Part shown: piece by piece, positions 29,027 to 59,253 of the stretch
How positions within the stretch are numbered: position 1 is the first letter of the stretch
Layout of the letters: the number at the start of each line of letters is the position of its first letter
Source of the DNA: a virus
DNA: 63,771 bases
Reading direction: 5' to 3' (one strand)
IMG/VR virus record: IMGVR_UViG_3300020471_002176
Span: 1 to 63,771 of that record
The notes under the pieces: model-generated
What the model saw: only the letters and a program-made list of their open reading frames with translations
Database searches by the model: none
What the model was told of the DNA's origin: nothing
Translations under genes and position numbers: made by a program

Positions 29027-29247
29027 TGACGTCTTTCTCAAGACAGCTACGCCGCAAAAAAAGAAACAGGTTTATGAAAACTTTCAAAAAGACTATGAAA
29101 AATTTCAAAAAGTCAGTTAAATGCTCTCAGTGCTCTCGCGAGCCCCGAGAAGGGGAGACGATCGATGCTTGGCTGATGCAAAGGTACTCTGATAGGATCT
29201 TGCTCGCATGCCCGGAGTGCTCCCAGGGGGATGAGCAAAATGTCTGA
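29026..29247 (+). CDS. Small zinc-ribbon protein
   Basis: 73 residues, ATG overlapping the dUTPase stop by 1 base. A basic N-terminus (RQLRRKKRNRFMKTFKK) precedes CSQCSREP ... ACPECSQ, a CxxC-x(n)-CxxC zinc ribbon. Possibly nucleic acid or protein binding. Overlaps the IMPDH-like gene. Confidence 0.6.
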   Translation: MTSFSRQLRRKKRNRFMKTFKKTMKNFKKSVKCSQCSREPREGETIDAWLMQRYSDRILLACPECSQGDEQNV

Positions 29248-30265
29248 ACAACCTTTTCAGATGACGTTCTCATTCGACGACGTGTTGCTGGTTCCAAAGT
29301 TTAGCGACATAGGATCGAGAAAAGAGATAGACATCTCCTCACAAGTCGGAAGTCATAAATTTTCGTTACCTATAATTTCCAGCCCGATGGATACAGTTAC
29401 CGGAACAAATATGGCTAAGACTATTTTTAATCATGGTGGCCTTGGAGTTCTACATAGGTACAATACAATACACGAACAGTGCAAAATGGCCACAGACGCG
29501 GGCTCTGTTACATTGGCAGCCGCCGTCGGCGTCAGTGGAGACTTAATGGATAGGGTGGCCGCTCTGTGGACTGTAGGTGTTAAGATTGTTTGTGTTGATG
29601 TTGCTCACGGGCACCATTCAAATGTCGAGCAGGCCATAAAAAAAATTAAAGACCTGTATGCGGAAGACATGACAATAATCGCCGGCAATGTAGCCACACC
29701 AGAAGGGTTTAGTGATTTACAGTCTTGGGGCGCTGATGCGATTAGAGTTGGCATCGGCGGAGGCTCCATATGTAGTACTCGAATTCAGACAGGACACGGT
29801 ATCCCAACATTCCATTCAGTCTATGCCTGCAGTCAGGTGAAGGGGAGGGCTAGTTTGATAGCAGATGGGGGAATAAAAGCGACAGGCGACATCGTCAAAT
29901 CTATCGCCGCCGGCGCAGATTTTGTTATGCTGGGCTCGATGTTGGCAGGCACTGCCGAATCCCCAGGTGAGGTTATGAACTCCACCGGCGGCAAGAGATA
30001 CAAAGTCTATAGGGGGATGGCTTCCAGGGCTGCCCAAGAGGAATGGAGAGGCGAAGCAAGGTCGCTTGAGGGTATCTCTACGACGATACCATATAAGGGG
30101 TCTGTAGAAAATATCCTGACAGATTTAAAACAGAACATTAGAAGCGGTTTTTCGTATTCGGGAGCACGAAACAAGGAACAGTTCCAGAAATCTCCAGTCT
30201 TCATAAGGCAAACATCCTCAGGCGCCTCAGAGAGCGGCACGCATATTTTGAGTAAAAATGAGTGA
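29231..30265 (+). CDS. IMP dehydrogenase / GMP reductase family enzyme
   Basis: 344 residues; a second ATG at 29240 is an alternative start. [63 protein letters not shown] and [20 protein letters not shown] (catalytic Cys loop) are hallmark blocks, followed by [27 protein letters not shown] and [10 protein letters not shown]. The CBS domains of bacterial IMPDH are absent, so length matches GMP reductase or CBS-less IMPDH. It interconverts purine nucleotides in the GTP branch; direction cannot be decided from sequence. Confidence 0.85.
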
Positions 30266-31452: not shown

Positions 31453-31474
31453 AGCCGCACTTGTGCGGCTTTTT
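31453..31474 (+). terminator. Rho-independent terminator after the acidic protein gene
   Basis: AGCCGCAC / GTGCGGCT stem with 2-base loop, preceded by an A run and followed by TTTT. Confidence 0.88.
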
Positions 31475-31475
31475 G

Positions 31476-31504
31476 TTTACTAGCTCGGCAGATCGTGATA
31501 TAAT
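31476..31504 (+). promoter_or_regulatory. Sigma70-like promoter for the ClpP-like gene
   Basis: TTTACT, 17 bases, perfect TATAAT, directly after the terminator. Predicted start of transcription near 31511 excludes the ATG at 31509 as initiator. Confidence 0.65.
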
Positions 31505-31541
31505 AGACATGCAACCCATCAAACGAAAAGAGAATAAAATT

Positions 31542-32240
31542 TTGAAAGAGAACAAGAAAGAGAACAAGAAAGAGAACAAGAAAGAGAAGAAGAAAGAGAA
31601 CAAGAAAGGTAAAAAGTCAAAAGAAGAACAAATTATCATCGTTAACAACATTCAGGCATCCTCGCCGCCTGAAGACAACCTTAGAACTGTCACTCTATAT
31701 GGCGACGTCACAGAAGACTCTGCCAAAGAGATTGTCTCTGGCTTGCTATATCTGGAGAGCACCTCGCAAGTATCCCAATACAAAGACCCCAGCGATCCGG
31801 ATTCTGAAATAGAACTAAGAAACTTAGATATAAATTTACTTGTCTCAACAAACGGCGGCTCTGCATCCGACATGTTCTCTATAGTGGATACAATGAAGAT
31901 GATCCAAGAAAAGACATGTGATGTTTCGACGCTAGGTCTAGGGAAGGTGTTTTCAGCTGGCGTGCCAATCTTGGCTTCCGGCACAAAGGGCAAAAGAAAC
32001 ATAGCAAAAAACTGCAGGGTAATGATTCACAATGTGTCCTCTGGCGTAGCCGGAACACTGGATACAATGGAGAATGAGATTCATGAAATTCGCTGGATTG
32101 AAGACAGTTATATAAATTGTTTGGTCGAAAATACCAAACTAACAGAAAAGAAGCTGAGAAAAATGCTGAACTCCAAAAAGGAAGTCTATATATCAGCCGA
32201 ACAAGCTATAAAACTGGGAATTGCGGACAATTTAGTCTAA
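31542..32240 (+). CDS. clpP: ClpP-like serine protease
   Basis: 232 residues from TTG 31542, chosen because the promoter's start site falls after the in-frame ATG at 31509. A Lys/Glu/Asn repeat (five 12-base units) forms residues 2-21. The rest is a ClpP fold: LLVSTNGGSASDMFSIVDTM, GLGKVFSAGVPILASG with nucleophile Ser138, VMIHNVSSG with His163, and ISAEQAIKLGIADNLV. The catalytic Asp position appears as Glu (KKEVYIS). No ClpX/ClpA partner is seen, so it may use host unfoldases or act in prohead maturation. Confidence 0.82.
   Translation: MKENKKENKKENKKEKKKENKKGKKSKEEQIIIVNNIQASSPPEDNLRTVTLYGDVTEDSAKEIVSGLLYLESTSQVSQYKDPSDPDSEIELRNLDINLLVSTNGGSASDMFSIVDTMKMIQEKTCDVSTLGLGKVFSAGVPILASGTKGKRNIAKNCRVMIHNVSSGVAGTLDTMENEIHEIRWIEDSYINCLVENTKLTEKKLRKMLNSKKEVYISAEQAIKLGIADNLV
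31545..31604 (+). repeat. Five 12-base tandem repeats in the ClpP-like gene
   Basis: Unit AAAGAGAACAAG (K-E-N-K), one copy with AAGAAG at its end. In-frame microsatellite that could vary in copy number and change the length of the N-terminal tail. Confidence 0.9.
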
Positions 32241-33892: not shown

Positions 33893-35461
33893 TTGAACAC
33901 AAAACTAGAACACGGAAATGAACTTAGAAGCAAAATTCTTAAAGGTGTAAATCTTTTGGCAGATTATGTTTCTGCCACGATGGGTCCAAAGGGCCAGAAT
34001 GTAATCATTCACAAAAAAGACAGAAGACCATTTGTCACAAAGGACGGAGTAACCGTCGCCCGAAACTTGTCTTTCGACGACCCGTTTGTAAACGTCGGCG
34101 CCGAAGCAGTAAAACAAGTATCAGCAAAGACAAACCATGATGCAGGAGATGGCACAACTACCTCAACAGTTCTAGCCAGAGAGTTACTTAATCAGGCGGA
34201 CAAACACATTCGATCTGGCACTCCCCCGATTGAAATAAAGAGGGGCCTTGAGAAGTGCTTGGCAGTATCGCTGCTCTCGTTAGAGGAGACCTCAAAGAGG
34301 ATCTCTTCAGAAGAGGAGATTTTTGGAGTAGCATCAATCTCAGCAAACAACGATCCAGAGATTGGGCAGTTGGTCGCTGAGGCAGTTTCACGAATTGGGA
34401 AGAATGGCTCAGTCACTATCGCGGATGCTAGGTCAATGACCACTACGCTGGATCTGGTAGAGGGCTTTAAATTTTCTTCGGGATATGCGGCAAACGCGTT
34501 TGTAACAGATGAAAGGAAAGGGATCATTCAGTATGAGGATCCTCTGTTTTTGGTAACTGATTCAAGAATCGACACTGTTCAGGAGATATTGCCCGCTCTG
34601 GAGATTGCAGCGAGAGAGAACAAGCCGCTTGTCATCGTCGCGGACGATATTGAGGGCCAAGCATTGGCGGCCTTGATCATGAACACGGTGCGCGGAACAA
34701 TGAAGATAGCAGCAGTAAAGGCCCCTGACTACGGTGAAGCGCGAAGAGATACTCTATCCGATCTCGCGGTTTCAACTGGTGCGACATTCTTTCAAAAATC
34801 AAGCACCTCGCCAATCTCAGAAATTCAAATCTCTGATTTTGGTCAAGCTAAGAGTGTCGAGATTACGAAGTTTTCAACAACAGTCGTGGATGGCAACGGA
34901 GGCGACCAGGAAATACTCTCCTTAATGGAGAAGCTGAAGAAAGAGGTTGCTGAAACAGAAGATTTAGATGAGGCAGCGAGAACCCAACAGAGGATTAGCA
35001 GGCTATCTTGTGGAGTGGCGATCATTAATGTGGGCGCTAGTACGGAGATAGAGATGATAGAAAAGAAGCACAGAATAGAAGACTCTCTAGAGGCTGTCCG
35101 CTCCGCACAGCAGGAGGGCATCGTTCCTGGCGGAGGATTAACCCTTTTGAACATTTCAGCCGATTTGGCAGTCGACTTTGATAACGAGGACCAAGCCGCG
35201 GCCCTAAATATATTCAAGAGAGCTCTCGAAGCCCCCTTCCGTGTTATGGCGGGCAACGCAGGAATCAATGCAGATGTTGCCCTGTTGAAAGTGCCAAAGG
35301 GTTCGGATGCTGTTGGTGTAGATTTCTCCACAGGGGAGGCCACAGATTTACTCGAAAGGGGCATCATAGATCCGACAAAAGTTACACGCTGTGCGCTGCA
35401 AAACGCAGTTTCGGTTGCGAATACTTTACTTTTGACAAATCACGGTATTATTGAAGTTTGA
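33893..35461 (+). CDS. groEL: GroEL chaperonin (Cpn60)
   Basis: 522 residues, TTG start with GCGAGGA upstream. Conserved blocks in order: ADYVSATMGPKGQNVII, TKDGVTVARNLSFDDP, TNHDAGDGTTTSTVLARELL (ATP site with Asp of DGTTT), ANNDPEIGQLVAEA, GYAANAFVTD, PLVIVADDIEGQALAALIMN, AAVKAPDYGEARRDTL, EGIVPGGGLTLL and the ending of the equatorial domain. The GGM-rich tail is absent and the protein is about 25 residues shorter than E. coli GroEL. With the GroES-like protein it could fold phage capsid or replication proteins. Confidence 0.93.
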   Translation: MNTKLEHGNELRSKILKGVNLLADYVSATMGPKGQNVIIHKKDRRPFVTKDGVTVARNLSFDDPFVNVGAEAVKQVSAKTNHDAGDGTTTSTVLARELLNQADKHIRSGTPPIEIKRGLEKCLAVSLLSLEETSKRISSEEEIFGVASISANNDPEIGQLVAEAVSRIGKNGSVTIADARSMTTTLDLVEGFKFSSGYAANAFVTDERKGIIQYEDPLFLVTDSRIDTVQEILPALEIAARENKPLVIVADDIEGQALAALIMNTVRGTMKIAAVKAPDYGEARRDTLSDLAVSTGATFFQKSSTSPISEIQISDFGQAKSVEITKFSTTVVDGNGGDQEILSLMEKLKKEVAETEDLDEAARTQQRISRLSCGVAIINVGASTEIEMIEKKHRIEDSLEAVRSAQQEGIVPGGGLTLLNISADLAVDFDNEDQAAALNIFKRALEAPFRVMAGNAGINADVALLKVPKGSDAVGVDFSTGEATDLLERGIIDPTKVTRCALQNAVSVANTLLLTNHGIIEV

Positions 35462-39997: not shown

Positions 39998-41854
39998 ATG
40001 AGTAAGGTAATCGGAATAGACTTAGGGACAAGTAACTCTTGTGTCGCTGTTATGGAGGGCGGCTCACCAAAAGTCATCAACAATGAAGAGGGCCAGAGAA
40101 CTACGCCTTCGATGGTCGCATTTGGCAAGGGCGAGACAATGGTAGGCTCACCTGCCCGCCGCCAAGCTGTCACAAACCCAAAAGAGACAATTTATTCTGC
40201 TAAGAGGTTTATAGGTATGAAATTTAGCGAAGTGAAAAAAGAAGCTGAATCTATGCCCTTCGAGGTAAAGAAGAATAAATTAGGCATGTGCACCATCACC
40301 GCGAACGGTAAGGATGTGACCCCACAGGAAATCTCTGCAAGTATTTTGAGCAAAATGAAAACAGCAGCAGAAAAGTACCTAGGGGAGACTGTCGAAAGGG
40401 CAGTGATTACCGTGCCTGCGTATTTCAACGACTCGCAGAGGCAAGCAACGCGTGATGCAGGTAAAATTGCTGGACTCAAAGTGGAGAGGATTATAAACGA
40501 ACCCACCGCGGCTGCTCTTGCTTACGGCTTGAACAAGGGCGACCAAAGAAACATTCTTGTTTATGATCTTGGTGGTGGAACCTTTGACGTTTCTGTACTG
40601 GAGATCGGAGACGGAGTAGTGGAAGTGCTCAGCACCAACGGCAACACTCATCTAGGCGGCGACGATGTAGATAAGGTCCTTATCGAATGGCTCGTGTCGG
40701 AATTCAAGGGCTCAACTGGGGTCGATGTCTCCGGAGACTCGATGGTGATGCAACGCTTAAGAGAAGCAGCAGAAAAGGCGAAGATTGAACTCTCAAGCAC
40801 ACAGCAAACAAACATTAACTTGCCGTTTTTGACAGCAGACAACACAGGGCCAAAACATTTGGTGACAGACCTTAGTAGACCTGATTTTGAGAGAATGATA
40901 GATTCCCTCATTGAAGACACCATGGAGCCTGTGCAAAATGCACTTAAAGATGCTAATTTAGAAAAAAGTGCCATCGACGAGATCTTGTTAGTCGGAGGCT
41001 CAACGCGCATTCCAGCTGTTGTGGACAGGGTGGAGAAGTTTTTTGGCAAAAAGGTTTCGTCCTCCGTAAATCCGGATGAAGTGGTGGCCTTGGGCGCAGC
41101 GGTCCAAGGCGGCGTTTTCGTTGGCGAGGTTAATGATATCTTGTTGCTTGATGTCACTCCTTTATCGCTCGGGTTGGAGACTATGGGGGGAATTATGACA
41201 AGGTTAATCGACCGCAACACAACAATACCTTGCACTAAATCACAGGTGTTTACGACAGCAGAGGATAACCAATCGGCTGTAGACATCAAGGTACTCCAGG
41301 GAGAGAGGGAGTTTTCTAAAGATAATAAAATGTTGGGCACGTTTAAGCTTGATGGCATTATGCCTGCCCCGCGCGGCACGCCACAAATTGAAGTATCGTT
41401 TGACATTGACGCGAATGGTCTCGTGAGCGTGTCAGCAACAGACAAAAACACAGGAAAAGAGCAGAACATTACGATTACTGGCTCCGGCGCTATGTCTCCT
41501 GAGGAAATTGACAGACTTGTCGAAGAGGCACGCCAGAATGAGGAAGAGGATAGATCTAAAAAGAGGGAGATCGAGGAAAGAAATCAGCTGAGTGGCCTCG
41601 TGTTTCAGGCGGAGAAGTTTCTAAGAGATAACAAGGAAAAACTACCAGAAGAACAGCAGGAGCAGTTATCATCAGCTATCTCAAGGGCGTCTGAGTGTGC
41701 GAAAAGTGATTCAACCTCTGACTTTCAAGCCGAGATCTCCGCCCTCAGCGAAGCAATGCAGGAAGCAGGTAAGGCTGCCTACTCATCAGACGCAGAGCAA
41801 GAGCAGTCGCCACCTGATGAAGAAGTGATTGATGCAGAGTTTTCCGAGGCATGA
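39998..41854 (+). CDS. dnaK: DnaK (Hsp70) chaperone
   Basis: 618 residues, near full length. [71 protein letters not shown] and [20 protein letters not shown] are the Hsp70 ATPase signatures; [17 protein letters not shown] and [20 protein letters not shown] mark the linker and substrate-binding domain. It ends [11 protein letters not shown], the usual DnaK tail. No DnaJ or GrpE is seen, so host co-chaperones are expected. Good AAAGGAG ribosome site. Confidence 0.95.
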
Positions 41855-46817: not shown

Positions 46818-47891
46818 ATGGCAGTTGATTTCAGAACTTTTTCGGATATTGTTTCTTTTGTTACCGACGTGCGAAAGCCAGTGCTTTTACGCGGCCGACA
46901 TGGCATCGGCAAATCTACAGTTGTGTACGATTTCGCCAGAAGCAAGGGGCTTGAGGTTGTTGAGCGTAGGGCTTCGCAGATGACAGAGGGCGACCTCGTG
47001 GGTCTTCCTGTGATCTCTGACAACAGTACAACTTTCAATCCGCCAGATTGGTTCAAGAAGGCATGTGATAGTCCTGTTATCTTGTTTCTCGACGAGGTAG
47101 ATCGAGCCACATTGGAAGTTCGTCAGGGTATTTTCGAGCTTACGGATTCTCGCAAGCTAAATGGCCATATTCTGCATGAGGGTACACTTGTTTTCGCCGC
47201 AGTTAACGGTGGGGAGCACGGCTCACAATATCAGGTTGGTGAGATGGACCCAGCAGAACTCGACCGTTGGACCGTGTTTGACATCGAACCCTCAGTTGAG
47301 GACTGGTTAGACTGGGCTAAAGACAGCAACGTGTCTGATGTTACCTGGGATTTTATCAACCAAAATAGAACCCACCTTGAGCATAAGGATGATTATGAGC
47401 CAAACAAGGTATATCCTTCTCGCCGCTCCTGGGAACGTCTAGATCAGTGTCTTCAGAGCGGCTCCATGCTCTCGGATGATAACCTCAGCTCCAGCCCAAG
47501 GTTGTATAATCTAGCTTCTGCTTTTGTTGGGTTTGAGGCAGCAGTTTCCTTCAATGATTTTGTTGGAAATTACGACAGGCAAGTCACTGTTGAGGATATT
47601 CTGGTCAAGGGTTCCTTCGAGAAGGTCGCTGATTTCGGCATCAATGATCACACAGCGTTAATTGATAAGTTTGAGGCTGCTGAATCCTTCAAAGAAGAAC
47701 TAGAACAAGCCCAAATCAACAACTTGGCTAGGTATTTTGTGATGCTCCCTTCAGAAGTTGCTATGAAGTTGTGGTCTGTTCTCGGCAATGGCGCTTTGAA
47801 TAACACGATCAAATTACATCAGTCAGAGGTTGATGGCAGTTCGGTTTCAGAGTTCTTGGTTACAATCTTGGCTGGTGATACGGAGAAATAA
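46818..47891 (+). CDS. MoxR-type AAA+ ATPase
   Basis: 357 residues. Walker A RGRHGIGKST (about 22-31), then ASQMTEGDLVGLPV, Walker B ILFLDEVDRA, sensor region LVFAAVNGGEHGSQYQVGEM and DPAELDRWTVFDIEP. These are typical of MoxR ATPases that act with a von Willebrand A partner. The partner gene follows 4 bases downstream. ATP-driven remodelling or metal-centre insertion is the known role of such pairs; the target here is unknown. Confidence 0.85.
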   Translation: MAVDFRTFSDIVSFVTDVRKPVLLRGRHGIGKSTVVYDFARSKGLEVVERRASQMTEGDLVGLPVISDNSTTFNPPDWFKKACDSPVILFLDEVDRATLEVRQGIFELTDSRKLNGHILHEGTLVFAAVNGGEHGSQYQVGEMDPAELDRWTVFDIEPSVEDWLDWAKDSNVSDVTWDFINQNRTHLEHKDDYEPNKVYPSRRSWERLDQCLQSGSMLSDDNLSSSPRLYNLASAFVGFEAAVSFNDFVGNYDRQVTVEDILVKGSFEKVADFGINDHTALIDKFEAAESFKEELEQAQINNLARYFVMLPSEVAMKLWSVLGNGALNNTIKLHQSEVDGSSVSEFLVTILAGDTEK

Positions 47892-47895
47892 GAGT

Positions 47896-49158
47896 ATGAG
47901 CACTGAGTATGATGCACAAAACAACAACTTTGACCTAAATTTGCACACGGCTAGACTGCTGATGGATGAGCCGTTTTTTGCATCTATCAGTAGGAGGATA
48001 GATAAACGCGCCTCATATTCAGTGCCGACCGCCGGAGTTATGGTGAACCCTGAAACTGGGCAATTTGAGATGCTCTATAATCCAGGCTTCTTTGCAAAGC
48101 TTACCGATGCCGAGCGCAGAGACGTGTTGAAGCATGAATATTACCACATCATCTTTCTTCATGTTACTGACAGGCTACCAGAAGGGGTGAATCCTCGTCT
48201 TTGGAATGTGGCTACGGACTTGGCCATCAATTCACACTTACACAATCTGCCAGCAGGAGGACTTATTCCTGGGGTGCATCCTTTCGACAACCTCCCTAGG
48301 GGCCAGTCAGCAGAGTGGTATTTGGCAAACTTGCCATCGTTTCAGGGTGGCGGTGATGATGCTCCAGAGCCCTCATCGGGTCAAGGTCAGGGCGAGTCAG
48401 GATCGGGTGACTCCTCGAACAAGGGAGGAGACAAGGAAGACGGCGATAGTAAATCGGATGATGGCATCCCCGACTCCCTCGACGATCACAGCGGCTGGGG
48501 CAACTGCAGCCAAGAAGTAAAGGATATGGCTAAAGAGAGATTAAAGGAGATCGTCAGGAAGTCTGCTGAGGAATGTGCACAGCGTAACTCCTGGGGTACT
48601 GTTTCTGCAGATGCTCGTGTGAAGATCATGAAGGTTCTCGAAACAAAGGTCGATTGGAAGAAAGTCTTGCGCTTTTTTGTCAAAGCAAGTCAGAAGGCGA
48701 ACAAGTCGTCCTCGATCAAGAGAATTAACAGGAGGTATGCTTATGTCCACCCTGGCCGCAAATCCAACAGAGTTGCAAAGATCGCGGTTTCGATTGACCA
48801 ATCAGGCTCCGTCAGCGACGCGATGCTTGCTAAGTTTTTCGCTGAATTGAACAAATTGGCCGAGGTAGCGGAGTTTACGGTGATTCCTTTTGATACTCGT
48901 GTCGATGAAAGTTTAATCTGGACATGGAAGAAAGGCTCCAAGGCTGGGCAAGAGAGGGTGATGTATGGTGGAACCTGTTTTGATGCCCCTACGGAATATG
49001 TAAACAAGAAAGGCGGCTTTGATGGTCACATTATTTTAACAGATATGTGCGCACCAAAACCCAAGCCAAGCAAATGTCAGCGCATGTGGATGACGACACC
49101 GGAACATGCCCGGAGACCCTATTTTGAGACCAAAGAAAGAACAGTCGTGGTTGATTGA
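47896..49158 (+). CDS. Metallopeptidase-like / von Willebrand A protein (MoxR partner)
   Basis: 420 residues from ATG 47896. VLKHEYYHIIFLH (HEYYH at 80-84) gives a zinc-peptidase-like HExxH, as in DUF2201-type proteins; LWNVATDLAINSHL follows. Residues 155-200 are a Gly/Ser/Asp-rich linker. The C-terminal vWA-like domain has AVSIDQSGSVSDAMLAKFF (MIDAS D301-S305), TVIPFDTRVDE, GGTCFDAPTEYV and IILTDMCAPKP. Together with the upstream ATPase it forms a MoxR-vWA module. Confidence 0.8.
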   Translation: MSTEYDAQNNNFDLNLHTARLLMDEPFFASISRRIDKRASYSVPTAGVMVNPETGQFEMLYNPGFFAKLTDAERRDVLKHEYYHIIFLHVTDRLPEGVNPRLWNVATDLAINSHLHNLPAGGLIPGVHPFDNLPRGQSAEWYLANLPSFQGGGDDAPEPSSGQGQGESGSGDSSNKGGDKEDGDSKSDDGIPDSLDDHSGWGNCSQEVKDMAKERLKEIVRKSAEECAQRNSWGTVSADARVKIMKVLETKVDWKKVLRFFVKASQKANKSSSIKRINRRYAYVHPGRKSNRVAKIAVSIDQSGSVSDAMLAKFFAELNKLAEVAEFTVIPFDTRVDESLIWTWKKGSKAGQERVMYGGTCFDAPTEYVNKKGGFDGHIILTDMCAPKPKPSKCQRMWMTTPEHARRPYFETKERTVVVD

Positions 49159-50031: not shown

Positions 50032-50238
50032 ATGTCTTTGGAAGTAGGAGATCTTGTCGCCTGTTATGTGACAAACACTAGCGAATACGAATCCCTTATG
50101 AGCTGGGGTGTAGTCTTAGACACCAATACTGTTGGTGACGTGCTAGTTGTTGATAACGCCGGGTACACTCGCTGGTGGCCACCGTCACGTTGGAGAATCT
50201 TGAACAAAAAAGAACCAAAACCTCTTGACAAAAACTAG
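50032..50238 (+). CDS. KVGDLV-family small protein
   Basis: 68 residues. MSLEVGDLVACYVTN ... WGVVLDTN ... DVLVVDNAGYTRWWP. Family pattern clear, Lys-rich end. Confidence 0.65.
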   Translation: MSLEVGDLVACYVTNTSEYESLMSWGVVLDTNTVGDVLVVDNAGYTRWWPPSRWRILNKKEPKPLDKN

Positions 50239-50985: not shown

Positions 50986-51178
50986 AGGCATGTTGATGTG
51001 GCTGTTTATCTCTGTTGTCGGTGTGTTTATACTCATGAGGCTGTCTTCGCTTGCGGAGCAAACTAGACTGAACAGTTTACAGGAAGATCTCATGAGAGAG
51101 ACAGTTCGGCGTCTGGTGCAAAAAAGAAAGCTTGATGAGCTTTATGGCAGAGGAGATGATGAAAATGAAAGTCGGTGA
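50975..51178 (+). CDS. Small single-pass membrane protein
   Basis: 67 residues. MLMWLFISVVGVFILMRLSS is a membrane helix; the rest is a charged helix. It ends NESR at the shared junction GTCGGTGA, although unrelated to the KVGDLV family, so the ESR ending is imposed by the overlap. Confidence 0.6.
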   Translation: METEGMLMWLFISVVGVFILMRLSSLAEQTRLNSLQEDLMRETVRRLVQKRKLDELYGRGDDENESR

Positions 51179-51383
51179 CTTAGTGACATTGTCGGCTTAT
51201 GGCAAGTCAGTTAAGAGAGCATCCTGGATCGGCGCCGATAATTTCGGATTGATTATAAAGGTCGTCCCCTGGGCCAGCGGTAATGATTGCGACTATATTG
51301 TGCGATGGCAGAAGCCTACCTTAAATCGCCGTTGGCATCACGAAAGATATAACCAAAGAAAGGATCTTAAGTACTTGAAATGA
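51165..51383 (+). CDS. KVGDLV-family small protein
   Basis: 72 residues from ATG 51165 (AGGAG upstream, within the previous gene). MKVGDLVTLSAYGKSV ... FGLIIKVVPWA ... YIVRWQKPT. The first exact copy of the TGAAAGTCGGTGA junction in the window. Confidence 0.7.
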   Translation: MKVGDLVTLSAYGKSVKRASWIGADNFGLIIKVVPWASGNDCDYIVRWQKPTLNRRWHHERYNQRKDLKYLK

Positions 51384-53698: not shown

Positions 53699-54136
53699 AT
53701 GAATGCAATTACAGTCAGACGACACCCTGGCCTTTTGGGTCACAAATATATAACTGAGGCACTTGATAACCTGTTTGGTGATCAACACTTCATGGACGGA
53801 GCAATTAAACACTCCACGAAAGGATACCCCGTAGCCGATATTTACCGCGACGACGATGGTAGTACAATTATTGAATTCGCCCTGGCTGGATTTAAGAGAA
53901 AGGAGCTAACCATTGATGTCAAACCTGATAAACGCGCCATCACCGTTACTGGAACGGCGAACGAGTCAAATGAAAAGAGGCATAGGATAGCAAGACGAAA
54001 TTTTACTCGCACTTATGTAAATTATGACGACAACCTGGATCTATCATCCACAAAGGCCACGTTTGAAAATGGCCTCTTGACAGTGAGAGTACCTCAGCGC
54101 CCTGAGGTAAAGCCTCTAACTATTGAAATTAATTGA
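53699..54136 (+). CDS. Small heat-shock protein (Hsp20)
   Basis: 145 residues. The alpha-crystallin domain spans about 45-140: VADIYRDDDGSTIIEFALAG, FKRKELTIDVK, AITVTGTA, YDDNLDLSSTKATFENGLLT and VRVP (G-x-L-x-x-x-x-P hallmark). C-terminal TIEIN provides the I-x-I anchor. Very strong AGGAGG ribosome site. Hsp20 is found in several large phages; it holds unfolded proteins for DnaK and GroEL, both encoded here. Confidence 0.9.
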   Translation: MNAITVRRHPGLLGHKYITEALDNLFGDQHFMDGAIKHSTKGYPVADIYRDDDGSTIIEFALAGFKRKELTIDVKPDKRAITVTGTANESNEKRHRIARRNFTRTYVNYDDNLDLSSTKATFENGLLTVRVPQRPEVKPLTIEIN

Positions 54137-54768: not shown

Positions 54769-54996
54769 ATGAAAGTCGGAGACCTAGTGAAGCTATCCAG
54801 TTATGGCATCGCCCGCGGTTACAATGCGCGCTTAACCACAGAAGATGCGACGCAATTAGGTTTAATTGTCAAGGTGAGAATAAACGGATCTTATCCTTAT
54901 AAAGTTCGATGGTCAAAACTTAAACCTAGCTCCATGGACGTTGGCCATATGCGTAGAGAATTGAAATACGCATATAAGAACGGGCAAATGAGATGA
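54769..54996 (+). CDS. KVGDLV-family protein, first of the tandem array
   Basis: 75 residues, GGAGGCGAA ribosome site. MKVGDLVKLSSYGIARGYN ... LGLIVKVRING ... PYKVRWSKLK. Close to the member at 51165 (YG, L-I-x-K-V, VRW), suggesting duplication. Confidence 0.72.
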   Translation: MKVGDLVKLSSYGIARGYNARLTTEDATQLGLIVKVRINGSYPYKVRWSKLKPSSMDVGHMRRELKYAYKNGQMR

Positions 54997-55199
54997 AAGT
55001 CGGTGATTTGGTTCGTTGGACAATGGTTGAACACTGTTATCATATTGCTTGTGGCGTACCTGGATTAGACTTGACAGACGCAAGAAAACGTGGTATTATA
55101 GTAGATAACAATGGCATTAACTTTTTTGTTCGCTGGGAGAACGGCGATATCAAGGCGGCAAAACCAAACACAATCGAGGTAATCAGTGAAAGTCGGTGA
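54993..55199 (+). CDS. KVGDLV-family array member
   Basis: 68 residues. MKVGDLVRWTMVEHCYHIA ... RGIIVDNNGINFFVRWENGD, ending EVISESR. Starts by ATGA overlap with the previous gene; its last 14 bases are the start of the next. Confidence 0.75.
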   Translation: MKVGDLVRWTMVEHCYHIACGVPGLDLTDARKRGIIVDNNGINFFVRWENGDIKAAKPNTIEVISESR

Positions 55200-55374
55200 C
55201 TTGGTCAAGTATGAAAGTTGGCATACGGGATTGCAAGGTCTGGCAGGAGTTGTTATTGAATTTAGGCCACTACCATCCGGCGACCGCGCCCGCGTCCTAT
55301 GGTCTACTTCTCGACCAACACCTATTCGCTGGGACTGGGCTGAAGAATTAAGGATTGTCAATGAAAGTCGGTGA
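55186..55374 (+). CDS. KVGDLV-family array member
   Basis: 62 residues, GTG start inside the previous stop region. MKVGDLVKYESWHTGLQ ... LAGVVIEFRPLPSGDRARVL ... ELRIVNESR. Confidence 0.75.
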   Translation: MKVGDLVKYESWHTGLQGLAGVVIEFRPLPSGDRARVLWSTSRPTPIRWDWAEELRIVNESR

Positions 55375-55567
55375 TATAGTTACAGATGATTTCTACGAGG
55401 ACATCGGTCTCATTGTAGGCGGCCCAAGACTATCGGAAGATTGCGATTTTGTTCGATTCGGAACAATGATGGGCGATGTTTACGAAGTAGTAGATGTGCT
55501 GTGTCCAGATGGCACGTTAAGGTTGTTTACAACGGATGAATTAAGAGTTATCAGTGAAAGTCGGTGA
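55361..55567 (+). CDS. KVGDLV-family array member
   Basis: 68 residues, ATG start. MKVGDIVTDDFYEDIGLIVG, more acidic than its neighbours, ends ELRVISESR. Confidence 0.75.
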   Translation: MKVGDIVTDDFYEDIGLIVGGPRLSEDCDFVRFGTMMGDVYEVVDVLCPDGTLRLFTTDELRVISESR

Positions 55568-55742
55568 TTTAGTGAAGAACGGCCAGGGGCATACGGGGAT
55601 TGTGACAGGCATAGGGTACGTAGGCGCACTCAAGGCTTACGAGGAATCACCCAGCTTGAACCCAGACATTCACGTCATGACTCCGAATGGTTTTCGTCTC
55701 TGGTCATACAAGACTTTAAGGGTGATCAGTGAAAGTCGGTGA
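55554..55742 (+). CDS. KVGDLV-family array member
   Basis: 62 residues, GTG start. MKVGDLVKNGQGHTGIVTGI ... DIHVMTPNGFRLW ... LRVISESR. Confidence 0.75.
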   Translation: MKVGDLVKNGQGHTGIVTGIGYVGALKAYEESPSLNPDIHVMTPNGFRLWSYKTLRVISESR

Positions 55743-55905
55743 TTTGGTGAGATATTTTAATGCAGCTTATCACTCCACTCAGGTTGGTATCATTGTTGCT
55801 ACTGAGCATGGGCTTCAATCAATAAAGGTCCGATGGACGGACCACACGCCATCATCACGAGACTGGTATACCCAGTTTGAATTGAGAAAAGTGAAGGAGA
55901 TTTAG
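55729..55905 (+). CDS. KVGDLV-family array member (end of first block)
   Basis: 58 residues, GTG start. MKVGDLVRYFNAAYHSTQVG, IIVATEHGLQSIKVRWTDH. Ends RKVKEI without the ISESR junction, closing the first block of the array. Confidence 0.75.
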   Translation: MKVGDLVRYFNAAYHSTQVGIIVATEHGLQSIKVRWTDHTPSSRDWYTQFELRKVKEI

Positions 55906-55907
55906 AG

Positions 55908-56108
55908 ATGCCACTTGAAGACGATATTTTTGACGATTTTATGATGAATCGAGCATGTCAAGCTGCAATGTTTGCTGATTTTGTGGCTCTTCTAAATATG
56001 AAAGCAGTAGAGAACGTAAAAAACTCAGAAAAGATGGAACTTTTGACAGAGATCCTCAATGATTTGAAGCTTTTTACTAATCCTGCCATAAATGAGCTGA
56101 GCCACTGA
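55908..56108 (+). CDS. Small helical protein within the array
   Basis: 66 residues, GGAG upstream. Acidic helical (LEDDIFDDFMMNRACQAAMF, KMELLTEILNDLKLF). Unrelated to the flanking family. Confidence 0.6.
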   Translation: MPLEDDIFDDFMMNRACQAAMFADFVALLNMKAVENVKNSEKMELLTEILNDLKLFTNPAINELSH

Positions 56109-56342
56109 ATGATACGTTCTAGATCCGAGCGACCCAAAAAGACAAAGATCGAGCTTGATCTCACAGGCCCACAAGGCAATGCCTATTACTTATTGGGCGT
56201 AACCAAGCGCCTTGGTGAGCGCCTTGGTTATTCGAAAAAGAGAATTGAAGCGATTCAACATGTGATGTTGCTTACTAATTATGAAGGCCTGATTCACACG
56301 TTCGATAAAGAATTTGGTGATTATGTCATACTTTGGAGGTGA
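56109..56342 (+). CDS. Small unknown protein within the array
   Basis: 77 residues directly after the previous stop. KKTKIELDLTGPQGNAYYLL and GERLGYSKKRIEAIQHVMLL; a mixed alpha/beta protein of a type seen in phages, function unknown. Confidence 0.6.
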   Translation: MIRSRSERPKKTKIELDLTGPQGNAYYLLGVTKRLGERLGYSKKRIEAIQHVMLLTNYEGLIHTFDKEFGDYVILWR

Positions 56343-56345
56343 AAT

Positions 56346-56414
56346 ATGAGTTTCTGGGAGGCCCTCTTAAGAGGGTTAAAATTCTTCGATAAAAAAGAAA
56401 AGAAAAAAGCTTGA
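56346..56414 (+). CDS. Tiny basic peptide
   Basis: 22 residues, GGAGG upstream. MSFWEALLRGLKFFDKKEKK, amphipathic then poly-Lys. Its TGA stop lies inside the TTGACT -35 box of the next promoter. Confidence 0.5.
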   Translation: MSFWEALLRGLKFFDKKEKKKA

Positions 56415-56439
56415 CTCAGGCCCCTGATTTTGGTAAAAT
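56411..56439 (+). promoter_or_regulatory. Sigma70-like promoter with conserved leader
   Basis: TTGACT, 17 bases, TAAAAT, then ACAATCAAGAAAGGCTTATT. Drives the gene at 56472 and the second block of the array. Confidence 0.75.
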
Positions 56440-56471
56440 AGTATTACGACAATCAAGAAAGGCTTATTTCA

Positions 56472-56675
56472 ATGTCCCACGCAATTTGTATCAAGTGCCA
56501 GTGTAGTTTTAATCCTCGTCGCCTAGAACTCGGTTATCGAACCTGCTTATCTTGTGGTGGTGCAGCCGCTGAGAAAGAAAGATCACGCAAAGCAAAGTGT
56601 TCTGCGCCTGCCTATAACAAGGGCGCATACCAATACGTCGGCACCGTTCAGGCCGCCAAAGGAGTCGGTCGTTGA
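56472..56675 (+). CDS. Small zinc-finger protein
   Basis: 67 residues. CIKCQCSFNPRRLELGYRTC and LSCGG make a C-x2-C-x(n)-C-x2-C finger; the rest is basic with Lys/Arg. Ends GVGR at a degenerate junction with the next KVGDLV gene. Confidence 0.6.
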   Translation: MSHAICIKCQCSFNPRRLELGYRTCLSCGGAAAEKERSRKAKCSAPAYNKGAYQYVGTVQAAKGVGR

Positions 56676-56875
56676 AGGTTGGCGATATTATCGAGGCTAG
56701 ACACGGCGAAATTGGTATGGTTATCTCAGTCGAGTATATGTACCCGACCCACCCTCAGTCGCCGGCTTCTCGTGTCAAGGTCGATTGGATCAGTGAGCCG
56801 CCTCAATGGTGTCCGCCCGGTCTAATGTTTTCGACGTTTGCGATCAAACGAGTGGTGAGTCGTGCATCGAGGTGA
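56672..56875 (+). CDS. KVGDLV-family array member
   Basis: 67 residues, TTG start. MKVGDIIEARHGEIGMVISV ... SRVKVDWISEP, ends SRASR. The junction bases differ (TTGAAGGTTGGCGAT), so it may be an older copy. Confidence 0.7.
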   Translation: MKVGDIIEARHGEIGMVISVEYMYPTHPQSPASRVKVDWISEPPQWCPPGLMFSTFAIKRVVSRASR

Positions 56876-57026
56876 TTTAGTGAAGTATTACGGCTCCTGG
56901 AGCGATGTTGGCATTGTTCTCTTGGTTAATGACGAGGGAGGGACCGTCAAGGTACACCGCCTCCGAGAGAATGACACAAAGTGGTGGGTCACAAGCGGCT
57001 GTGAGGTCATCAGTGAAAGTCGGTGA
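56862..57026 (+). CDS. KVGDLV-family array member
   Basis: 54 residues, GTG start. MHRGDLVKYYGSWSDVGIVL, GGTVKVHRLREND, ends EVISESR. Confidence 0.7.
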   Translation: MHRGDLVKYYGSWSDVGIVLLVNDEGGTVKVHRLRENDTKWWVTSGCEVISESR

Positions 57027-57186
57027 CTTAGTGAGGGTCGAAAACTCCTATGTTAATCGTATTGGGATAATCGTTGCCAAGGCGGAACAAAACAGGTGTT
57101 ATCTTGTCCAATTCTGTGACGACAACAGCCCGATTCGGTGCTCTTATCATGTGAATGTTATCAGGAGAATCAGTGAAAGTCGGTGA
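57013..57186 (+). CDS. KVGDLV-family array member
   Basis: 57 residues, GTG start. MKVGDLVRVENSYVNRIGII, CYLVQFCDDNSP, ends IRRISESR. Confidence 0.75.
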   Translation: MKVGDLVRVENSYVNRIGIIVAKAEQNRCYLVQFCDDNSPIRCSYHVNVIRRISESR

Positions 57187-57373
57187 CTTAGTGACAATGG
57201 TCCCATTCAACGCTCCTCCGCAGTTGTATGGCGTGGGTGTAATCGTGGAAAAGCTACAGCTATGTCCTTCAAATCCAAATGCTGTAAGAGTGAAGGTAAG
57301 TTGGTCAGGCGGCCTCAATACTCCGCCGCGCATCGGGAATTGCCACCCTAGAGTTCTGGTCCCACTATCATGA
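57173..57373 (+). CDS. KVGDLV-family array member
   Basis: 66 residues, GTG start. MKVGDLVTMVPFNAPPQLYG, VGVIVEKLQ, VRVKVSWSGGL. Ends LVPLS rather than ESR and overlaps the next gene by ATGA. Confidence 0.75.
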   Translation: MKVGDLVTMVPFNAPPQLYGVGVIVEKLQLCPSNPNAVRVKVSWSGGLNTPPRIGNCHPRVLVPLS

Positions 57374-57546
57374 AGATCGGTGATCTAGTGCAACACGTTG
57401 ATATGCCGAAAGCGCATCGCATCTTGGGTATTGTGGTTGAAACATATGTCGATCTCGATACATGCGATGTTATTTGGCTCGATAGAGGTAGTGAGGTTTT
57501 TCATCATTACACTTTTTCTTTGGAGCTAATCAGTGAAAGTCGGTGA
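57370..57546 (+). CDS. KVGDLV-family array member
   Basis: 58 residues. MKIGDLVQHVDMPKAHRILG, IVVETYVDLDTCDVIWLDRG, ends ELISESR. Confidence 0.72.
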   Translation: MKIGDLVQHVDMPKAHRILGIVVETYVDLDTCDVIWLDRGSEVFHHYTFSLELISESR

Positions 57547-57715
57547 TTTGGTAAAATTGATGCCCCATTGCCGCGACAGTGATCGACTAGCGATGGTGGT
57601 AGAGATGCCAGGCCCATTGTTTGGGCTTAATTGTGTGAAAATAATGTTTCTTGACAACGGTAAAAGAACACCGGCCACTAAGAATAATCTGGAGATCATC
57701 AGTGAAAGTCGGTGA
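57533..57715 (+). CDS. KVGDLV-family array member
   Basis: 60 residues, GTG start. MKVGDLVKLMPHCRDSDRLA, MVVEMPG, CVKIMFLDNG, ends EIISESR. Confidence 0.75.
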   Translation: MKVGDLVKLMPHCRDSDRLAMVVEMPGPLFGLNCVKIMFLDNGKRTPATKNNLEIISESR

Positions 57716-57902
57716 TTTGGTATACTATTGTGATGACCTTAACGATGACACCAGACCAGGTCTTGTTTTAGAGATTATAAGTTGGGTCGATAAAGGCGCA
57801 CCTGATAGAAACTTCGGCCTTGATATCAAAGTACTCTGGCCAGACGGCAGTCGAATGCTTTGTGGCGAACATGAATTGAGAACTGTTGATGAAAGTCGGT
57901 GA
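57702..57902 (+). CDS. KVGDLV-family array member
   Basis: 66 residues, GTG start. MKVGDLVYYCDDLNDDTRPG, LVLEIISW, LDIKVLWPDGSRM, ends TVDESR. Confidence 0.75.
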   Translation: MKVGDLVYYCDDLNDDTRPGLVLEIISWVDKGAPDRNFGLDIKVLWPDGSRMLCGEHELRTVDESR

Positions 57903-58047
57903 CTTGGTAAGACACAAACGTAGAAACTGGCACGCTCTTATCGTGACTGTTGACCAACCTCGAAGGCATATCAAGCTTTTGGATGAGGAGGGCAGTGTGT
58001 TTTGGGAAAGGATGAGCGACTACGAGGTGATCAGTGAAAGTCGGTGA
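57889..58047 (+). CDS. KVGDLV-family array member (short)
   Basis: 52 residues, ATG start. MKVGDLVRHKRRNWHALIVT, HIKLLDEEGSVFW, ends EVISESR. Confidence 0.72.
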   Translation: MKVGDLVRHKRRNWHALIVTVDQPRRHIKLLDEEGSVFWERMSDYEVISESR

Positions 58048-58201
58048 TCTGATTGTGGATAAAGAGTATCCCACCGAGCCAGGTATTATTATAGAAGAGA
58101 GTTCAGTTAACTTCTTTGTACTTGACCCCACCGGCAAAGTTGTGCCGCTTACGAAGGAGTATATTGAGGATGATTGCGAGGTGATCAGTGAAAGTCGGTG
58201 A
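58034..58201 (+). CDS. KVGDLV-family array member
   Basis: 55 residues, GTG start after GAGGTGATCA. MKVGDLIVDKEYPTEPGIII, NFFVLDPTGKVVP, ends EVISESR. Confidence 0.72.
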   Translation: MKVGDLIVDKEYPTEPGIIIEESSVNFFVLDPTGKVVPLTKEYIEDDCEVISESR

Positions 58202-58352
58202 TTTGGTTAGACTAAAAAGATACCCAACAAGTATGTCAGCGGTGGTTATCAGTATACTGAACGGCAATGGATACCTAGATATGCGGAGAGCTGACGGAGT
58301 GGTATGTTTCGCACATGAAAGTTCCTTGGAGGTAATCAGTGAAAGTCGGTGA
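58188..58352 (+). CDS. KVGDLV-family array member
   Basis: 54 residues, GTG start after GAGGTGATCA. MKVGDLVRLKRYPTSMSAVV, GYLDMRRADGVV, ends EVISESR. Confidence 0.72.
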   Translation: MKVGDLVRLKRYPTSMSAVVISILNGNGYLDMRRADGVVCFAHESSLEVISESR

Positions 58353-58530
58353 TTTGGTTAGGTACACACCAGAGGGAACAATCGACGATCGCTGGGCTGA
58401 TTGGTATGGTCTGGTGGTTAGGATGATTCCAGGCACGTCCGAAATGACTGTGGTTAGGTGGAACAAGGACAACAATAACACATTATCAATCAGAAAAAAG
58501 GACTTAACTGTAGTCAATGAAAGTCGGTGA
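58339..58530 (+). CDS. KVGDLV-family array member
   Basis: 63 residues, GTG start. MKVGDLVRYTPEGTIDDRWA, YGLVVRMIPG, MTVVRWNKDN, ends TVVNESR. Confidence 0.75.
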   Translation: MKVGDLVRYTPEGTIDDRWADWYGLVVRMIPGTSEMTVVRWNKDNNNTLSIRKKDLTVVNESR

Positions 58531-58636
58531 TTTGGTGAAAAATAATCTTGAAGCAGCCTTCGCCATCTCAGTGGCTATACTGATACCAATTTTTGCAATA
58601 CTGATTGGCCTTGCACTAGGGGCAGTGGTTGTATGA
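58517..58636 (+). CDS. KVGDLV start fused to a membrane helix
   Basis: 39 residues, ATG start. MKVGDLVKN is followed at once by a hydrophobic helix ISVAILIPIFAILIGLALGA. The barrel is missing, so this is either a chimera created by recombination at the junction or a native membrane peptide that acquired the shared start. Confidence 0.6.
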   Translation: MKVGDLVKNNLEAAFAISVAILIPIFAILIGLALGAVVV

Positions 58637-58821
58637 CACTTAAAGTCGGTGATTTAGTAAAGGACAACCATCCGAGTTGGGCGGGTGCTGAAAGAATTGG
58701 CGTGATTGTCGGTCGGACAAAATCAGCACTGCACAACAAGTCATTCAAAGTCCTGTGGCGCAACGGCACCATCGGAAATAATGTTTGGGATTATGACTTA
58801 AAAATCATAAAAAGCTCTTGA
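58633..58821 (+). CDS. KVGDLV-family array member (last)
   Basis: 62 residues, ATG overlapping the previous stop. MTLKVGDLVKDNHPSWAG, RIGVIVGRTKS, SFKVLWRNG. Its TGA stop is part of the TTGACT -35 box of the next promoter. Confidence 0.72.
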   Translation: MTLKVGDLVKDNHPSWAGAERIGVIVGRTKSALHNKSFKVLWRNGTIGNNVWDYDLKIIKSS

Positions 58822-58846
58822 CTTTCAATAGTTTATCTGCTATACT
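58818..58846 (+). promoter_or_regulatory. Sigma70-like promoter with conserved leader
   Basis: TTGACT, 17 bases, TATACT, then AACAATCAAGAAAGGTTATT before the gene at 58883. Confidence 0.8.
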
Positions 58847-58882
58847 ATGTGAGTAGAAACAATCAAGAAAGGTTATTTTTCT

Positions 58883-59062
58883 ATGGCTGGCAAAGCAAGA
58901 ATGAGATTTATCGCGAGGTCGAATCGACTTCGTTTTGAGCGTGACAGTGGACACTATGCAGGTGCTAACCTTTACGGTGTCGAATGCATTTACTGTCACG
59001 AGTATTTCCCCAATGTAAAGAAGCCAGAGTTTGGCGGCCATGTGTGCAGGGGCTGCAAATGA
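58883..59062 (+). CDS. Small zinc-ribbon protein
   Basis: 59 residues. Basic start (KARMRFIARSNRLRFER), then CIYCHEYFPN ... HVCRGCK, a C-x2-C / C-x2-C ribbon. Confidence 0.65.
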   Translation: MAGKARMRFIARSNRLRFERDSGHYAGANLYGVECIYCHEYFPNVKKPEFGGHVCRGCK

Positions 59063-59253
59063 GGCATCGACTTGTTGAGGTTAAGTGGGATACCAACGAT
59101 GACCTTGGTATTTGGCATGACCCGCTAGACATCGGCCTGCCAGAAATCGTGACTGTGCCTGACCACATTGACGAGAATGATATAAGCGATTACCTTTCAG
59201 ACAGGTGGGGCTACTGCCACTTTGGTTGGAAGTTTGTAAAGGAGAGCGAATAA
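59059..59253 (+). CDS. Small acidic protein
   Basis: 64 residues, ATGA overlap. LVEVKWDTNDDLGIWHDPLD ... ISDYLSDRWGYCHFGWKFV. Unknown function. Confidence 0.55.
   Translation: MRHRLVEVKWDTNDDLGIWHDPLDIGLPEIVTVPDHIDENDISDYLSDRWGYCHFGWKFVKESE

Follow-up and report, generated by a model that had tools for sequence, protein, structure and literature searches.

The stretch of DNA analyzed here (hereafter the window), 63,771 bases long, is a virus record of IMG/VR. Its plus strand carries, between positions 54769 and 58821, an array of 19 small open reading frames (ORFs) with products that begin with M-K-V-G-D-L-V or a variant of it and that are chained to one another through a short repeated junction block. 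Exact copies of this block, TGAAAGTCGGTGA, occur 15 times on the plus strand, 14 of them at 54994-58530, exactly as counted in an earlier note made from the DNA letters of the window, and the 15th at 51166; the minus strand has none, and the pattern read backwards has no match in the window. When up to two mismatches are allowed, the window holds 21 block matches, as compared to a mean of 1.7 and a largest value of 6 in shuffled windows. The earlier note also placed most of the copies within an exact 20-mer, which overstated their extent: ATCAGTGAAAGTCGGTGATT encloses only 6 of the 14 array copies, and the 18-mer ATCAGTGAAAGTCGGTGA encloses 10.

Each block copy is a 14-nt overlap of two ORFs, in which the end of the upstream product (...E-V-I-S-E-S-R-stop) and the beginning of the downstream one ((A/G)TG-K-V-G-D) are written over each other. 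The upstream frame reads AGT-GAA-AGT-CGG-TGA (S-E-S-R-stop) and the downstream frame GTG/ATG-AAA-GTC-GGT-GAY (M-K-V-G-D), so the two-frame reading offered earlier is correct. In most copies the start lies 5-6 nt after a GAGGT/GGAGGT-like sequence, as had also been proposed, and the E-V-I codons just upstream of the block (GAG-GTN-ATC) are themselves this Shine-Dalgarno sequence. A whole junction is found at 55176-55205 (GAGGTAATCAGTGAAAGTCGGTGACTTGGT), where the Shine-Dalgarno sequence (GAGGT), the start of the next gene and the stop of the previous one all fall together, and the anatomy of the other 14-nt junctions is similar. The spacing of 1 modulo 3, which the earlier note described as invariable, is a trivial result of the 14-nt overlap where it holds, and it does not hold for the unit at 57173-57370, which is 2 modulo 3 in length and overlaps its neighbour by only 4 nt (ATGA); this shorter kind of join is found twice, at 54993 and 57370.

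The array is split in two by genes that are not family members (55908-56675), and its edge ORFs, at 54769 on the upstream side and at 58633 on the downstream side, are members of the family as well. All of the genes lie on the plus strand. The first sub-array opens with member 1 (54769-54996; MKVGDLVKLSSYG...NGQMR), the 3' end of which forms one of the ATGA overlaps, and continues with member 2 (54993-55199), which ends in ...EVISESR in the block, member 3 (55186-55374), which starts with GTG in the block and ends in ...IVNESR, member 4 (55361-55567), which starts with ATG in the block, member 5 (55554-55742) and member 6 (55729-55905), which closes it. The intervening genes lie at 55908-56108 and 56109-56342, with a short ORF at about 56346 and a CxxC protein at 56472-56675; a Pfam scan of three of these genes gave no match. 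The second sub-array comprises member 7 (56672-56875; TTG start, MKVGDII...), member 8 (56862-57026; MHRGDLV..., ending in EVISESR), member 9 (57013-57186), member 10 (57173-57373), which overlaps its successor by the other ATGA, member 11 (57370-57546; MKIGDLV), members 12 to 17 (57533-57715, 57702-57902, 57889-58047, 58034-58201, 58188-58352 and 58339-58530), a gene at 58517-58636 in which the MKVGDLV start precedes a hydrophobic, membrane-type body, and the last member (58633-58821). A separate family member lies at 51165-51383; it holds the 15th exact block, in which the ORF upstream of it ends in ...DENESR.

Scanning with the block-start pattern retrieved at least 119 contig stretches, in which the exact 13-mer reaches up to 17 copies per contig. 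The non-redundant collection comprises 156 loci with 1,139 members, 530 junctions with the 14-nt overlap and 68 with the 4-nt overlap, the former being about eight times commoner; the median unit length is 175 bp and the longest unbroken array has 13 genes. A Shine-Dalgarno match of at least 4 nt is present at 467 of the 530 junctions. Given the overlap and the Shine-Dalgarno sequence, it is likely that translation of a downstream gene is coupled to the ribosome that has just translated the upstream one. A different use of the same overlap could perceivably be a programmed +1 frameshift that yields polyproteins of linked barrels, since the next gene does lie in the +1 frame and the stop TGA follows CGG. 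We regard this as the least credible of the explanations considered here, because the Shine-Dalgarno sequence stands at the right distance for a start codon. For a frameshift site of the prfB type, it is too far ahead of the stop.

The array genes themselves look real and are under purifying selection, as judged from a ratio of nonsynonymous to synonymous substitution rates (dN/dS) of 0.15 over 138 comparisons and from differences that are distributed as 722/490/1810 over the three codon positions. Most bodies share a pattern of G-hydrophobic-hydrophobic and V-x-W-x-x-G, and most belong to one diverged family of predicted SH3/KOW-like barrels. The AlphaFold2 (AF2) model of the last member of the window array (58633-58821), obtained with an alignment of 99 members, is a five-strand SH3-like barrel with a predicted local distance difference test score (pLDDT) of 88.9 and a predicted template modelling score (pTM) of 0.75. 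The nearest solved folds are YorP, HspQ, PetP and PsaE, at E-values of 0.006 and weaker, and the family profile weakly matches the KOW domains of Spt5/NusG (Spt5 chain, E 0.001). PHROGs and Pfam returned no usable family for the members, only isolated weak matches (KOW, SH3_15, YccV-like). The array marks, in T4-like viruses, a large family of small proteins with this predicted fold that carries no annotation. The earlier description of the units as independent small-protein genes is not supported, as most of the bodies are paralogs that have diverged within a single SH3/KOW-like family; what survives of it is that the same block sometimes joins unrelated genes.

Comparison of related contigs revealed where such arrays change. 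Inside arrays, 64-77% of alignment ends fall in a 25-base zone at the block, as opposed to 6% when the positions are shifted around the array; the counts are 526 of 818 ends at an identity of at least 80%, 273 of 376 at 85% and 98 of 127 at 92%, and the shifted control never exceeded 75 of 818. The clustering of breakpoints, for which the earlier note proposed a test, is borne out. Outside arrays, 12 of 99 alignment ends lie near ORF starts (13% for random points), and since these ends show no preference for ORF starts, the pattern is not one of general gene-border mosaicism. Individual pairs illustrate the same point. First, contigs L130 and L132 are 99-100% identical over ~19 kb and differ by exactly one 176-bp module with its ends at the block. 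Second, contigs L143 and L288 match at 99% identity along 5 kb, after which they are separated by insertions, replacements and transpositions of modules that are 92-99% identical, the edges of these differences lying at blocks. Third, the window module at 57013-57186 (member 9) is 95% identical in nucleotides to module 11 of contig L120, with the similarity starting and stopping at blocks, in a pair of viruses that are otherwise mostly 65-72% identical where alignable; a second stretch of high identity between the two is found at 58746-59063 (91%). Member 11 is 81% identical in nucleotides to module 10 of L120, whose immediate downstream neighbour there is the relative of member 9, and member 14 is 87% identical to module 1 of contig L108, again bounded by blocks.

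The order of the modules is scrambled as well. Of the 132 successive pairs of members that contigs share, 95 (72%) are collinear, in contrast to 862 of 876 (98%) for other shared genes, and at an identity of at least 85% the immediate successor is kept for 32 of 103 members versus 66 of 91 other genes. Recurring modules have 50 distinct neighbours in 56 downstream adjacencies, and at the protein level 381 of 628 pairs are collinear, which is near the 50% of random order. The relatives of the window members in L133, L120 and L182 stand in differing order, and relatives of member 5 (67-71% protein identity) occupy differing array places in at least seven other contigs. Conserved order was named in the earlier note as what would speak against a cassette-like array; what is found instead is scrambled order with module edges at blocks, and the test thus comes out in favour of the note.

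These data also bear on the simplest account, namely ordinary tandem duplication followed by divergence in place, with the junction kept only for its two-frame reading and its Shine-Dalgarno sequence. It fits the fact that members are mostly paralogs of one family, that the block is dual-coding and that some arrays (L211, L146) contain two related copies, and duplication has certainly had a share in how the family arose. The account does not, however, predict scrambled order of orthologous modules with 50 different neighbours in 56 adjacencies, insertions of a single module, a module that two diverged viruses share at 95% identity, or the synonymous bias, described below, in the dual-coding block. 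The order data refute it as a full account, and as the main explanation we hold it to be very unlikely.

The position of the crossovers could be narrowed further. Counted from the start codon, pairs that have only the upstream module in common agree as far as +13, and their similarity is gone by about +20. Where only the downstream module is common to a pair, the sequences are unrelated as far as the start codon's first base, and beyond the block they agree; that first base (A or G) travels with the upstream module. As read from these alignments, crossovers between arrays occur inside the ~20-nt block, of which the start codon and TTGGT are the limits. Entire modules are the units of insertion, deletion, transposition and exchange between diverged viruses. 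Since the crossovers fall inside the block, the Shine-Dalgarno sequence and the start codon move with the upstream gene. Each module thus supplies the ribosome site and start of the next gene and uses those of its predecessor, and exchange would for this reason be expression-neutral. At the third base of V3, C is present in 89% of the C/A cases, versus 28% predicted by codon use in both frames. The block is thus conserved beyond the need of either protein, as would be expected if its DNA identity were used or recently shared.

Taken together, we consider it highly probable that the array is a chain of interchangeable small-gene modules in the accessory region of a T4-like virus, exchanged block to block. 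A module in this sense would run from one block to the next and comprise its own body and the last codons (E-V-I-S) in which the Shine-Dalgarno sequence and the start of the following gene are held. Because all blocks fix the same stop and start frames, any block-to-block exchange leaves both genes and the ribosome site intact. This agrees with the core proposal of the earlier note, that short identical coding ends allow gain, loss and reshuffling of units with frames kept, which every comparative test that we ran supports. Exchange would proceed by homologous or short-homology recombination or by template switching, with phage machinery of the RecA/UvsX-gp32 type and no site-specific recombinase. 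We infer the use of the phage's own recombination because RecA-like and gp32-like genes are present and 20 contigs yielded no tyrosine or serine recombinase.

The sharp switch points within one short conserved block might also be produced by a site-specific, integron-like recombination system with the block as its site. We regard such a system as highly improbable, given that the junction pairing lacks covariation, that some breakpoints lie elsewhere and that no tyrosine or serine recombinase was found in those 20 contigs, which reach up to 236 kb; the controls were positive, DDE, HUH and host-borne enzymes were not searched for, and, as many contigs are incomplete, this last point is weak evidence. 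A hairpin at the junction, considered as a structure for coupling or recombination, is likewise unsupported: its predicted energy is about -4 to -5.5 kcal/mol, its mean z is -0.63 and its pairing does not depart from independence.

Several points weigh against exchange at the block as the whole explanation or against the firmness of the data behind it. Between 23 and 36% of the alignment ends lie away from blocks, and other breakpoints thus exist. Most of the collection was gathered by a pattern that contains the block; the loci anchored on the Hsp20 gene, for which the block was not used, are free of this bias and form a small subset, in which 9 of 40 loci have at least three members and in which 37 of 55 junctions with the 14-nt overlap carry the exact 13-mer. 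The pairwise comparisons share contigs and are hence non-independent, and all relatives are metagenome contigs, many of them incomplete. In view of this last fact, and of up to 17 exact 13-mers in a single contig, short-read assembly could conceivably have produced the arrays, or the differences between them, as artefacts by joining strains at the repeated block, and for any single case a chimera caused by the repeat is possible. As a general explanation we find it extremely improbable: identical arrays of 8 and 2 blocks were recovered from different metagenomes (L137/L139 and L145/L206), L130 and L132 agree in the order of all their other modules and the extra unit of L130 is a diverged copy and not a collapsed repeat, and modules differ by 5-20% between contigs.

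The block is not confined to the barrel family. It also ends GIY-YIG nuclease genes in two contigs (E 1e-16 and 6e-17), a SWIM zinc finger gene and a cytidylyltransferase gene. As unrelated genes end in the block, and as a membrane-type body stands behind MKVGDLV in the window, the junction joins more than the barrel family and works as a joiner of genes in general, at any rate where C-terminal ends are concerned. The nuclease genes lie in contigs L142 and L188 (oriented positions 3367 and 12391, respectively), and their C-termini (ISEDR/ISESR) are formed by the array block. In phages, nuclease genes are known to occur where exchange has its borders (PMC10448857), and by analogy the GIY-YIG nucleases with block ends might help shuffling. 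The products of the array would be small SH3/KOW-like binding domains, probably host-directed accessory proteins of which the virus maintains a variable repertoire. A KOW domain is also predicted in the early DNA-binding protein MotB of T4 (PMC7827196), and we infer by analogy that the members might have a host-directed role resembling that of MotB. The array members resemble such KOW/SH3-like phage proteins in their predicted barrel fold; unlike the KOW domain of MotB (PMC7827196), they are stand-alone proteins of 50-70 amino acids that lack an OB domain and whose family matches are isolated, weak and apparently below the cut-off.

A bolder proposal, which we put forward tentatively and with less than even confidence, is that the junction is a purely coding recombination adaptor held by selection at the DNA level, which swaps small host-directed proteins and captures unrelated ORFs with translation unbroken, an integron-like platform that needs neither a recombinase nor non-coding DNA. 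The arrays described here show how phage accessory genes can be shuffled with their frames and expression intact, as the crossover zone itself is the stop, the ribosome site and the start. The old idea that short boundary sequences drive phage mosaicism gains hundreds of countable junctions, measurable crossover positions and experimental handles.

Parts of this picture are already known from other systems, namely shuffling at repeated non-coding borders in T4-like phages and chains of overlapping genes in lambda. In T4-type phages, the promoter early stem-loop elements (PeSLs) act as mobile regulatory cassettes (Arbiol et al. 2010; Comeau et al. 2014). As far as they are described in PMC4503421 and PMC3950731, they resemble the array blocks in that they occur in T4-like phages, lie as short repeats at the borders of genes and go along with a shuffling of small accessory genes; for the arrays, too, related T4-like phages are seen to have exchanged modules with edges at the repeated element. 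By these accounts, PeSLs are non-coding promoter-terminator elements, whereas the array border is wholly coding and passes on translation signals. The 14-nt junctions contain no early (sigma-70 type) promoter, save for a weak 9/12 match starting at 58517, and neither a terminator-like site nor a supported stem-loop was found at junctions. The interlinked genes of the lambda nin region (Kroger and Hobom 1982, as cited in PMC8022706) are, according to the citing article, densely packed small accessory genes chained by start/stop overlaps (ATGA). Stop and start codons overlap throughout the arrays as well, but ATGA is not the normal form: the nin overlap is 4 nt, as given there, and that of the array is 14 nt within a conserved block, with mostly one paralogous family and with crossovers placed inside the block.

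Integron gene cassettes resemble the modules in being exchangeable gene units with common ends that are set in an array, and whole units gained or lost with exact ends are indeed seen. They differ in that no integrase was found with the arrays (PF00589, the domain of IntI, is absent from all 20 contigs, with positive controls and with contigs that are incomplete), in that the ribosome site comes from the neighbour and in that the unit ends are coding; as for attC, the block is coding and its short pairing lacks covariation, and no search aimed at attC was made. Short conserved boundary sequences have further been discussed in phage mosaicism (PMC3029335), and there, too, recombination takes place at short shared sequences and gene borders; there, however, one or a few borders are concerned, whereas the array border occurs up to 17 times per contig and is common to many related viruses. 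A wholly coding border with this triple duty, repeated through an array and with crossovers inside it, was not found described in the searchable literature, which did not include the original PeSL papers.

The virus is a T4-like myovirus. The tail sheath of the window has a distant match to T4-like and related phages, RecA-like, gp32-like and other replication genes are present, and among 34 records (the window, related contigs and one bacterial genome) T4 gp23 is found in 17 and the sheath gene in 20. The phage collection contains no close isolate, the matches listed for the window being to a tRNA gene; for the block, isolated phages gave only short matches, such as one to a Salmonella phage gene on the other strand, and tblastn of one member against them gave none. 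Bacterial genomes did not reveal the host: the 20-mer pattern occurs in 40 genome contigs, among which L240, L248 and L270 alone have real junctions, and the match to a WOR-3 chromosome (L270/L282) is a phage-like fragment between N gaps that names no host. This fragment, at about 11900-15600 of L282 (WOR-3 metagenome-assembled genome chromosome CP070664.1), contains three array blocks, and its presence in a public bacterial chromosome is probably a scaffolding error.

Some other features of the window deserve mention. Good sigma-70-like promoter matches are found at 50225, 56411 and 58818, each of them followed by a similar ACAATCA(A/C)GAAAG leader and then by a short gene, and these sites likely represent transcription starts between or after arrays. 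The Hsp20 gene (53699-54136) neighbours the array, and together with Cpn60/GroEL-like (33893-35461), DnaK/Hsp70 (39998-41854; E 7e-251) and ClpP-like protease (31461-32240) genes, it makes up an unusually full set of chaperones and protease. An IMP dehydrogenase gene (29231-30265) and a ribonucleotide reductase-like gene (18292-20154) are present as well. At 46818-49158, an AAA (MoxR-like) ATPase adjoins a DUF2201 metallopeptidase/VWA-like protein, in a stretch that aligns with L120 and L108. Finally, the gene at 20818-22932 encodes a 704-amino-acid protein that opens with a signal-like segment and bears metal-binding motifs resembling those of MopE, which is unusual for a phage.

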